From NCBI GenBank assembly GCA_030531505.1, contig JAUNNH010000018.1, positions 1 to 37,233 of the forward strand: DNA of 37,233 bases. Direction: 5' to 3'. Under the pieces are notes generated by a model. The model was not told the origin of the DNA. It ran no database searches and saw only the letters and a program-made list of their open reading frames with translations. The DNA comes from Eubacteriales bacterium (lineage in GTDB: Bacteria > Bacillota > Clostridia > Oscillospirales > Oscillospiraceae). The position numbers and the translations under genes were made by a program. Shown piece after piece: positions 21,714 through 29,134 of the stretch (position 1 is its first letter; every line of letters starts with the position of its first letter).

Positions 21714-21841
21714 GGCACCCACGAGAGGATTCGCATGCATTTCTTTTTCGCCTGGCGAAAAAGAAATAAAGGAATTCACCAGTGTGAGCACTGGTTCATG
21801 CACATGCCACCGGCATGTGCGGACATGATTCGAATCCTCTC
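21714..21841 (-). repeat. tRNA-arm-matched three-hairpin element, copy 1 (downstream of tRNA-Arg)
   Basis: Read on the minus strand, the element starts with GAGAGGATTCGAA (21841-21829), the exact antisense of nucleotides 54-66 of the neighbouring tRNA-Arg, and ends with a 20-bp sense copy of the tRNA from C56 through the acceptor strand and CC (21733-21714). These arms form an outer 11-bp stem. Inside lie the core GAATCATGTCC (21831-21821); hairpin 1, GCACATGCC-GGT-GGCATGTGC (21820-21800); hairpin 2, ACCAGTG-CTCA-CACTGGT (21795-21778); hairpin 3, a 14-bp inverted repeat containing TTTTCGCC/GGCGAAAA (21767-21739); and CATG before the right arm. It begins 152 bases after the tRNA 3' end, beyond the tRNA terminator. 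No reading frame of interest lies in it. It shares its design with the copy at 28549-28675. Confidence 0.85.
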
Positions 21842-21864
21842 ATAGACAAGAAAAATCGTCTCTC

Positions 21865-21907
21865 AAAAAAAACAAAATCGGAGCCCAGCAAAGCGGGTCC
21901 GATTTTG
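21865..21907 (-). terminator. Terminator of tRNA-Arg
   Basis: On the minus strand CAAAATCGGA.CCC (21907-21895) pairs with GGG(C)TCCGATTTTG (21886-21873), followed by eight T residues. It separates the tRNA gene from the hairpin element, so the element is not simply the tRNA trailer. Confidence 0.88.
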
Positions 21908-21993
21908 AGAAGGAAGAAGGAGACTGCGGATATGCAGTTTTCGCGGCGCTTACGAAACCGCGGAAACGGAATGGAGCAGGCTTTTTCTGACGT

Positions 21994-22070
21994 TGGCACC
22001 CACGAGAGGATTCGAACCTCCGACCCCTCGCTTAGGAGGCGAGTGCTCTATCCTGCTGAGCTACGTGGGC
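21994..22070 (-). tRNA. tRNA-Arg(CCT)
   Basis: Minus strand, 77 nt with encoded CCA. The acceptor stem is GCCCACG/CGTGGGT (a G-U closing pair), the anticodon arm is CTCGC-CTCCTAA-GCGAG with anticodon CCT reading AGG, and the T-arm is GGAGG-TTCGAAT-CCTCT. Its 3' end is the source of the arms of the repeat element at 21714-21841. Confidence 0.96.
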
Positions 22071-28383: not shown

Positions 28384-28412
28384 TTGACAAGAGGGACGCT
28401 TGCCATTATAAT
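28384..28412 (+). promoter_or_regulatory. Promoter of tRNA-Pro
   Basis: Perfect TTGACA (28384-28389) and perfect TATAAT (28407-28412) with a 17-bp spacer; the tRNA begins 13 bases after the -10 box. Confidence 0.95.
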
Positions 28413-28425
28413 ATAAAGGCTGTTT

Positions 28426-28501
28426 CGGGGTGTAGCGCAGCTGGTAGCGCGCTTGGTTCGGGACCAAGAGGCCGGGAGTTCAAGTCTCCCCACTCCGACC
28501 A
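28426..28501 (+). tRNA. tRNA-Pro(CGG)
   Basis: 76 nt with encoded CCA. Acceptor stem CGGGGTG/CACTCCG, anticodon arm CTTGG-TTCGGGA-CCAAG with anticodon CGG reading CCG, T-arm GGGAG-TTCAAGT-CTCCC. Its 3' end supplies the arms of the element at 28549-28675, and its anticodon arm reappears in inverted form at 28680-28699. Confidence 0.97.
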
Positions 28502-28537
28502 AAAAGACAGGGGGCCATTCGGCCCCCTGTCTTTTTG
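28502..28537 (+). terminator. Terminator of tRNA-Pro
   Basis: AAAAAGACAGGGGGCC-ATTC-GGCCCCCTGTCTTTTT is a perfect 16-bp stem directly behind the CCA end. It lies between the tRNA and the hairpin element. Confidence 0.95.
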
Positions 28538-28548
28538 GTACAGGAGGA

Positions 28549-28675
28549 GGGGAGACTTGAATCATGTCCACACAGCCCGGTGGGCTGTGTATTCCCCAGT
28601 GCGCACACTGGGGAATACGATGATGTTTCGCCGTCCCCCGCAAGGCGAAACATGCAGACAAGTCTCCCCACTCCG
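28549..28675 (+). repeat. tRNA-arm-matched three-hairpin element, copy 2 (downstream of tRNA-Pro)
   Basis: The left arm GGGGAGACTTGAA (28549-28561) is the exact antisense of tRNA-Pro nucleotides 54-66. The right arm (28659-28675) is a 17-bp sense copy from C56 through nucleotide 72. They form an outer 11-bp stem. Between them lie GAATCATGTCC (28559-28569); hairpin 1, ACACAGCCC-GGT-GGGCTGTGT (28570-28590); hairpin 2, TATTCCCCAGTG-CGCA-CACTGGGGAATA (28590-28617); hairpin 3, ATGTTTCGCC and GGCGAAACAT around an 11-nt loop (28623-28653); and CATGC. It is 127 nt, against 128 nt for copy 1, with the same order of parts and the same tRNA register. Confidence 0.87.
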
Positions 28676-28679
28676 GCGA

Positions 28680-28703
28680 CCTCTTGGTCCCGAACCAAGA
28701 GGC
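28680..28703 (+). repeat. Inverted copy of the tRNA-Pro anticodon arm
   Basis: Twenty bases at 28680-28699 are the reverse complement of the tRNA-Pro anticodon arm (28452-28471), including the loop, which reads TCCCGAA instead of TTCGGGA. The palindrome continues to 28702 and the next bases GGCCG again match the tRNA in sense. It lies five bases after the right arm of copy 2 and six bases past the end of the minus-strand gene at 28708, for which it might act as a 3' hairpin. Copy 1 has no such extension. Confidence 0.8.
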
Positions 28704-28707
28704 CGTT

Positions 28708-29124
28708 TCACGGTCTGCACCGCTTGCAGGGGTCATAGCCCATCGCGATGACTTCCTCCCGTGTGCCGGTGAAGTCCTTTCGATTCTTGGGGTTCATGTC
28801 GGCCACGCTGTCGCAGTCAGGGTAGTGAAACTTGTGCGAATTGGTGTTCAACACATAGTCCGGCGCGGCGTCGGTGTCGAGCGCGGGGAGGGCACGGCTC
28901 TCCGCCGCCGGAGCGCCGCCCGCCCGCTGCCCCTCCTGATAGCCGAGCGTATAGGCCTCCTGCAGCAGGGACAGGACCTCCTCCAGCGTGAACACACGGT
29001 CCGTATCCATCGAGGCGAGATCCTCCAGCGAGATCGAATCTGACGCAGGCGCCGCAGCGGCGCAAGGCACAAGCAGAAAGAGGACCCCGAGCAGAGCGAG
29101 AACAAAAGAGAGCAGACGCTTCAT
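28708..29124 (-). CDS. Secreted small protein with a Cys/His nuclease-associated domain
   Basis: The 138-residue protein has a signal peptide (MKRLLSFVLALLGVLFLLVP, then CAAAAP), an acidic linker and a C-terminal domain starting YVLNTNSHKFHYPDC and ending DPCKRCRP. H100, C104, C133 and C136 could bind metal, as in the small Ada-like or nuclease-linked domains often found at the end of secreted thermonucleases and micronuclease-like proteins of Firmicutes. There is no nuclease domain in this protein itself. ATG 29124 follows GAGGTGAAGG. CysXXCys and His positions are intact. The role is unknown. It ends five bases from the tRNA-like hairpin at 28680-28703. Confidence 0.78.
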   Translation of the reverse strand: MKRLLSFVLALLGVLFLLVPCAAAAPASDSISLEDLASMDTDRVFTLEEVLSLLQEAYTLGYQEGQRAGGAPAAESRALPALDTDAAPDYVLNTNSHKFHYPDCDSVADMNPKNRKDFTGTREEVIAMGYDPCKRCRP

Positions 29125-29134
29125 TTCCTTCACC

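Follow-up and report, generated by a model that had tools for sequence, protein, structure and literature searches.

A family of gene-less hairpins behind tRNA genes suggests an undescribed kind of DNA element inserting into tRNA genes

Using a combination of approaches (covariance-model searches, folding, covariation counts and comparisons of tRNA loci), we found that a structure at positions 28549-28675 of the window (the whole stretch of 37,233 nucleotides that was analysed, contig JAUNNH010000018.1 of an Eubacteriales bacterium) belongs to a family of gene-less hairpins, the copies of which are dispersed behind tRNA genes. The arms that enclose the hairpins match, in both senses, the tRNA gene next to which the copy lies. 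Inverted repeats are normally the element's own and common to its copies. We propose, with a probability that we put at about 0.4, that the family consists of gene-less integrative DNA elements, which would insert in the T-loop of tRNA or tmRNA genes and carry a hairpin attachment site mimicking the target. We suggest, more tentatively, that the element is mobile and rewrites both its ends at each target, copying the 3' end in sense and antisense and keeping only the structure of its hairpins.

The window copy lies downstream of tRNA-Pro(CGG) (28426-28501, on the forward strand like all the features of this copy; nt 56-76 of the tRNA are 28481-28501), which is preceded by a promoter-like TTGACA-17-TATAAT sequence (28384-28412). 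It comprises, in that order, the left arm S' (GGGGAGACTTGAA, 28549-28561), which is the antisense of nt 54-66 of tRNA-Pro (28479-28491); the unpaired conserved core AATCATGTCC (28560-28569); hairpin 1 (28570-28590), hairpin 2 (28592-28615, with the conserved apex CCAGTNC..ACTGG) and hairpin 3 (28623-28653, with GTCCCCCGCAAG in its loop), all three supported by folding and covariation; and the right arm S (CAAGTCTCCCCACTCCG, 28659-28675), a sense copy of nt 56-72 of tRNA-Pro (28481-28497) with its breakpoint at C56. The initial annotation, made from the letters of the window, had described these two arms, and we found its description exact on both sides; coordinates and folds likewise bear out the 11-bp stem that it drew from the pairing of the arms around the three hairpins. 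The fold of this copy is strong on both strands with both RNA and DNA parameters (z of about -8 to -12), and none of 200 shuffles was as stable. The first AA of AATCATGTCC can also be read as the antisense of T54T55, and, since the AA after the left arm is kept in other genera while the next bases vary, it may be copied sequence.

Between tRNA-Pro and the left arm stands a perfect hairpin, hereafter X (28502-28536). As its A-run and its T-run pair with one another, X is probably a terminator; a simple terminator scan of the window did not list it. The element is placed, as annotated, beyond this hairpin, which adjoins tRNA-Pro. On the other side, directly past the right arm, a palindrome (CCTCTTGGTCCCGAACCAAGAGG, 28680-28702) includes the antisense of the tRNA-Pro anticodon arm, and an antisense anticodon-arm piece likewise lies 3' of tRNA-Pro in G334. 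Further downstream, positions 28708-29133 (reverse strand) encode a small protein with an Ada-type metal-binding domain (E 1e-4; at 22.5 bits, slightly under the Pfam cut-off of 23).

A search with 171 bases revealed further copies in the same genome, one of them inside the window. This second copy (21714-21841, reverse strand) lies behind tRNA-Arg(CCU) (21994-22070) and consists of a left arm (21831-21841), hairpins 1, 2 and 3 (21800-21820, 21775-21798 and 21739-21767, respectively) and a right arm with a sense copy of nt 56-75 (21714-21733), all on the reverse strand. Its core AATCATGTCC and its hairpins are the same as those of the tRNA-Pro copy, and its arms are the antisense and the sense of tRNA-Arg. 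A covariance-model search, a check that the initial annotation had also proposed, showed that the element is a repeated family. Model R1, built on four copies from the window's own genome with the arms paired to each other and no tRNA information, gave 14 matches in that genome at E ≤ 0.1 (including two reverse-strand echoes), and matches at E ≤ 0.01 in 20 of the 60 relatives scanned, two of them marginal (one, G050, E 0.0045, from another family). Strong matches (E < 1e-9) occur in 18 of the 37 genomes of the genus, with 0 to 25 matches per genome. The improved model R2, which includes one reverse-strand row of the window copy, matched 28 of 400 genomes and 15 of 106 genera in the family sample (the own genus and up to 14 others) and, among the 391 genomes of the class sample, the own genome only; an earlier model matched two of the 295 genomes of the order sample (the own one plus a second from its family). 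These large scans (family, order and class) were run with stricter filters, by which weak matches are lost. In total, the covariance model counts about 110 copies in the genus, and there are more than 150 copies with the other genera.

When public genomes were scanned with a pattern, 62 stretches came up, of which 60 bear clostridial MAG titles, with ruminants wherever an animal is named; contigs of Nitrospira and Paenibacillus, which came up in the same scan, look like chance matches and were rejected. Phage, plasmid and viral collections gave no match to the queries used (one exact pattern for the viral scan, one genus copy as a DNA query), which would miss the cores of other genera. The counts given below come from two sets. 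For the genus set, 100 stretches were fetched and 118 matches parsed, and the 112 that reached at least 50 bits were counted, leaving out the weaker rows (including G050) and the reverse-strand echoes. The other-genera set holds 78 matches in 64 stretches, 17 of the 91 places outside the genus, mostly weaker, having been left out. Two of its members (L277 and L278) hardly differ from genus copies and could belong to misbinned contigs.

With location on the strand of the tRNA as a requirement of counting in both sets, 84 of the 112 genus copies (at least 50 bits) have a tRNA upstream, within flanks of up to about 2.5 kb, and 65 have it within 60 nt (median spacing 46 nt). As for the remaining 28, 10 have less than 500 nt of upstream sequence, several adjoin tRNA 3' fragments resembling island ends, and others adjoin what we take to be tmRNA, recognised by eye in L060 and L075, where ARAGORN made no call. 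The targets found within 450 nt in the genus are tRNAs for Pro, Arg, Ser, Leu, Lys, Gly, Ala, Thr, Glu and Gln. In the other genera, a tRNA or tmRNA lies within 600 nt of 52 of the 78 copies, with Trp, Val and Met as new targets and, in one case (L314), an ARAGORN-called tmRNA with matching arms, bringing the targets to the tRNAs of 13 amino acids, plus tmRNA.

The arms follow these genes closely. Over nt 56-66 of the 65 genus copies, the right arm has on average 0.92 mismatches in 11 positions with its own tRNA versus 3.9 with other tRNAs, and the left arm 0.78 in 11 versus 3.8. In the 52 copies from other genera, the mean mismatches are 0.65 versus 4.0 for the right arm and 1.37 versus 4.0 for the left one, and the right arm is identical to its own gene over nt 56-66 in 38 of the 52. 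Repeated as it is over the family, the match between tRNA and arms is far beyond chance. What had been annotated for one tRNA-Pro (arms drawn from the adjacent tRNA in both senses) holds for many tRNAs and many species in both sets, and cores lacking any match between arms and tRNA, which the initial annotation would have taken as the sign of a chance link, were not seen as a rule in either. As exceptions, one unit at the tmRNA of G680 has the arms of another tRNA, and in a few Ala and Lys copies the two arms agree with one another, but not with the tRNA. Near-identical units with the same X and the same CGATCCCCCT-type arms were also observed behind differing tRNA or tmRNA tails (L283, L281, L282 and L292); this looks like transport at the end of some larger integrative element.

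The element is present behind some tRNA-Pro genes of the genus and absent behind others, as seen in the comparison with and without the element that the initial annotation had proposed for this locus and that we made across the genus (50 loci centred on tRNA-Pro genes). Where the core is present, an exact antisense arm lies within 300 nt in five of five cases and an exact sense arm in four of five. Among the 38 core-free tRNA-Pro genes with at least 150 nt read, the antisense arm is absent from all and a sense copy occurs in two; seven further genes are too short to judge. The antisense arm is therefore tied to the core, and not to tRNA terminators generally. In L225 and L361, a core-free tRNA-Pro gene has a sense copy of its own 3' end within 300 nt, without an antisense arm, and these copies resemble plain attachment-site duplications.

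The limits of the arms are as follows. First, right arms that are exact over nt 56-64 show no match beyond C56 in 58 of 58 cases in the genus and in 34 of 38 elsewhere, the other four matching the tRNA upstream of C56. Second, exact left arms reach T54, not G53, in 56 of 56 cases in the genus and in 26 of 31 elsewhere, where five run further. Third, of the 96 exact right arms, 54 end before CCA is reached. Fourth, in 17 of 104 copies, the sequence that precedes the left arm has antisense traces of nt 67-76 (score of at least 7, a score that other tRNAs reach in 0.7% and 2.4%), so that the copied antisense can begin upstream of the interval that corresponds to 28549-28675. Concerning the later fate of the arms, at those positions of nt 56-66 at which right arm and tRNA disagree, the left arm sides with the tRNA 38 times and with the right arm 9 times in the genus, and 12 and 2 times, respectively, in the other genera; these counts are biased by the fact that arms are located by their tRNA match, and one genus arm set was skipped. 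On the whole, the arms appear to start out perfect and mostly to decay independently thereafter, unlike the inner hairpins, and the drift counts are more in line with copying at birth than with strong selection for pairing later on. The initial annotation had left a choice between two-sense copying of the tRNA, for which snap-back synthesis would be one conceivable route, and a requirement that the stem pair; the drift is better explained by the former, and arm placement leans the same way.

The main rival of an integrative element, namely template switching during replication, is in our judgement unlikely. Switches among the 3' end of the tRNA, X and the core would copy both senses and keep the hairpins perfect, thereby making and maintaining the arms once a core has landed near a tRNA, with no dedicated arm enzyme. 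The hairpins do vary and yet are near-perfect, with few wobble intermediates, and one study reports that template switching yields perfect stems and multibase compensatory changes (PMC8794818). The antisense traces of nt 67-76 beside X would also fit a fold-back through X. However, antisense nt 56-66 are kept better than nt 67-76, despite their greater distance from the centre of such a fold-back; the breakpoints at 54 and 56 are exact; and none of the 38 element-free tRNA-Pro genes has an antisense arm behind it.

Returning to the integrative element, the extent of the insert can be approached through hairpin X and the sequence past the right arm. X is a perfect hairpin, the sequence of which is different in nearly every copy, and for that reason we read it as belonging to the inserted unit. 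Three tandem units in another genus have three different X, and the tRNA-Leu copies of G007 and G034 differ in X though their flanks on the downstream side are 96% identical. Such differences in X between orthologous or tandem copies are not expected from simple unit transfer. Two other origins of X were considered and rejected: a copy of the native terminator (X resembles the sequence past the right arm in 2 of 26 cases only, one of them a tandem unit) and travel together with the core (a similarity of 9.27 across the tRNAs of one genome versus a background of 8.65). The terminator of an element-free tRNA-Pro(UGG) gene of G009 aligns with the sequence past the right arm in three of the four copies tested (22-26 of about 41, shuffles reaching at most 13), versus 6-8 with X; the fourth copy, from a tandem array, gave no match, and in four other element-free tRNA-Pro(UGG) genes there is no resemblance to X or to the sequence past the right arm. 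As the G009 terminator matches there (one gene of five), the sequence past the right arm may be native, which suggests that the insert consists of the copy of nt 56-76, X, the antisense arm and the hairpins. The right arm is thus, as annotated, a sense match to the tRNA, but it may be the displaced native 3' end instead of the new copy, judging from that one gene of five. Tandem arrays have a period of about 178 bp, which agrees with an insert of about 180 bp. Flank searches for two loci did not reveal any clean empty site with matching neighbouring genes, and inspection by eye, with no empty site to compare, found no MITE-like target-site duplication outside the arms.

By analogy with XerC acting on the attP hairpin of the CTX phage and on dif, we propose that an insert of about 180 bp (copy of target nt 56-76, X, antisense arm and three hairpins, in that order) would go in between nt 55 and 56, in the T-loop of a tRNA or tmRNA gene. 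The tRNA would retain a working 3' end, and its former 3' end would turn into the right arm. In a single-stranded or cruciform form, the antisense arm would pair with the 3' end copy into a forked hairpin, the stem of which would carry the target-site sequence. A tyrosine recombinase or another enzyme, supplied in trans by the host or by an island, would then carry out the exchange between this stem and the T-loop in the tRNA gene. The tRNA would correspond to the restored target, X to the body of the insert, and the arms and hairpins to the folded site.

In an integrated CTX phage, the attP1 and attP2 sites are inverted, with a spacing of about 90 bp, and form a forked hairpin, the stem of which is the attachment site; integration leaves a functional target site along with two non-functional arm sequences (PMC3089051). 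The attP(+) site of this phage, which relies on the host XerC/XerD, and the element have in common two inverted arms with a spacing of about 90-105 nt (about 100 nt in the element), hairpins in the interval and a stem that mimics the chromosomal target. The two nevertheless differ, in that CTX targets dif whereas the element targets the T-loops of many tRNA genes and of tmRNA, and in that the arms of the element differ from copy to copy and no phage genes were seen.

Concerning the enzyme, matches resembling tyrosine recombinases occur in 39 of 41 genomes, i.e., nearly everywhere. A reverse transcriptase (RVT_1) was rejected as a partner, being found in 14 of 41 genomes and not in the draft sequences of the element-rich G007, G030 and G033. 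A Y1_Tnp transposase was rejected as well, being found in 24 of 41 genomes and not in the element-bearing G000, G002, G004, G013, G019, G027 and G036, although several of the genomes lacking it are incomplete. No recombinase was recognised between close copies, in the few inter-copy stretches whose ORFs were read. At three loci (L067 2471-3469, L060 2253-2603 and L087 2715-3242), genes are flanked by two copies with the same arms; their products are one double GNAT protein and two proteins that match no Pfam family at E 0.01.

Such loci with genes between same-armed copies, among them that of the double GNAT protein, would fit a reading of the element as a relative of the integron attC, or as some other recombination site of a resident tyrosine integrase, possibly with cargo between two copies. 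The attC sites are described as folded DNA hairpins and, like the element, they keep hairpin structure more than sequence and are probably read as DNA. We nevertheless regard this relationship as improbable: an integron integrase (TIGR02249) was above the cut-off in none of 41 genomes, the arms of the element change with the tRNA, and its three hairpins stand within a target-derived stem, unlike those of attC.

Whether the hairpins act as DNA or as RNA was addressed through their variation. In an alignment of 110 distinct copies, which was fitted to the model and hence favours pairing (slid controls being less than 50% paired), 95.1% of cells are paired, 32 of 39 pairs have double changes, and 952 cells with double changes were observed versus 269 in shuffles. 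Variation in RNA helices passes through G-U. Hairpins 1-3 of the genus have 26 G-T and 21 A-C among 3,054 cells, and those of the other genera 27 G-T and 17 A-C, whereas the tRNA stems at the same loci have 72 G-T versus 10 A-C in the genus and 67 versus 2 elsewhere, and the X hairpins 25 versus 6. The difference between hairpins and tRNA stems gives Fisher p values of 7e-5 and 1e-6, for sequences that are not independent. Hairpin by hairpin, the G-T to A-C counts in the genus are 4 to 6 (hairpin 1), 10 to 13 (hairpin 2) and 12 to 2 (hairpin 3), the last ratio being RNA-like. A scan of the window found no promoter-like site between X and the element, and the only Rfam match at gathering score is the tRNA, all weaker matches being below their gathering scores. 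The few G-T, their small excess over A-C and the lack of a promoter-like site together point to DNA structures rather than RNA.

An RNA gene, a possibility that the initial annotation had raised by proposing a look for RNA reads, is therefore not what the element looks like, its balance of G-T and A-C being unlike that of tRNA stems. We consider it very unlikely that the element is a structured RNA, or a processing or regulatory signal in the tRNA transcript. The strong folds (present on both strands), the location of the counted copies on the tRNA strand (itself required when counting) and the ratio in hairpin 3 of the genus would agree with an RNA. On the other hand, the three hairpins taken together have no clear G-U excess, which X and the tRNA stems do have; the element is placed past X; and the promoter and Rfam results given above tell against it too.

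The relationships between cores bear on the way in which copies spread. Of 78 cores, 31 have their nearest neighbour at a tRNA of the same type (shuffles: mean 5.7, maximum 18), and 18 have it in the same genome (shuffles: mean 6.7, maximum 14). Because cores cluster by tRNA as well as by genome, old inheritance appears to be mixed in, and the sequences argue that locus inheritance and within-genome spread or homogenisation are both present. In G021, for instance, the core variant AATTATG is found with tRNAs for Thr, Gln, Arg, Ala and Gly, as well as in two copies whose arms are of the Lys type, and not in the Pro, Ser and Leu copies; single copies of this variant occur in G017, G034 and G036. 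The sharing of tRNA type by nearest-neighbour cores more often than in shuffles would also be consistent with an immobile DNA structure kept by the host, such as a boundary or a recombination guard behind tRNA genes. We give this idea little credence, in view of the patchy distribution of the element: within the genus, 18 of 37 genomes have strong matches (numbers per genome run from 0 to 25, and many genomes are incomplete), and in the family sample the element occurs in 15 of the 106 genera.

Other repeats were observed near tRNA ends or within copies. Among the copies listed, hairpin 2 of L115 576-754 and that of L074 2786-2956, from different genomes, have a near-identical palindromic insert (CCTGCCTCTGCATACACAAGTTCTA..AGAAC(T/A)TGTAGTAAGT). 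A second recurrent sequence, which starts with ACGTC(A/G)GAAGAA or similar and has its own terminator-like hairpin, lies directly past the CCA of tRNA copies (window, about 21842-21993, reverse strand; L082, L074 and L285) and is perhaps another tRNA-end element. Finally, near tRNA ends, L002, L005, L159 and L366 share another dispersed repeat, in which a TCCGCTTCGCTC-like motif is accompanied by a GC-rich palindrome.

Similarly to the islands and ICEs that target tRNA genes, the element has the 3' end of the tRNA duplicated at its far end. It differs from them by its size of about 180 bp, which leaves no room for an integrase gene, by its additional antisense arm, and by the association of one core with many tRNAs. 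Like the REP/BIME palindromes associated with RAYT, it is a dispersed non-coding intergenic DNA palindrome, but its ends are made of tRNA sequence and Y1_Tnp does not track its presence. The foot of REP hairpins carries an unpaired GTAG or CGTC tag, according to PMC3733652, and no such tag was found by eye in the window copy, the single copy inspected. Like MITEs, the element is short, gene-less and ended by inverted repeats, but these are common to a copy and its target, and not to the copies among themselves. Of the known families considered, each departs from the element in a tested defining feature, save the CTX-type site, the key step of which would be strand exchange on single-stranded DNA by a tyrosine recombinase. 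The literature searched holds no element of this design, in agreement with the initial annotation, which knew of none; most subscription journals lay outside that search, and a description there is possible.

Together, these data suggest an undescribed kind of DNA element inserting into tRNA genes, in which each copy has the inverted arms of its own target gene, with tmRNA and the tRNAs of 13 amino acids as targets and up to 15 genera as hosts. If the element is mobile, it would have a route into essential tRNA genes without breaking them, and a way of changing target, and it would depend on a recombination system that reads the structure of DNA and not its sequence. With more than 150 copies at hand, the question of how the ends get written is directly testable by sequencing.
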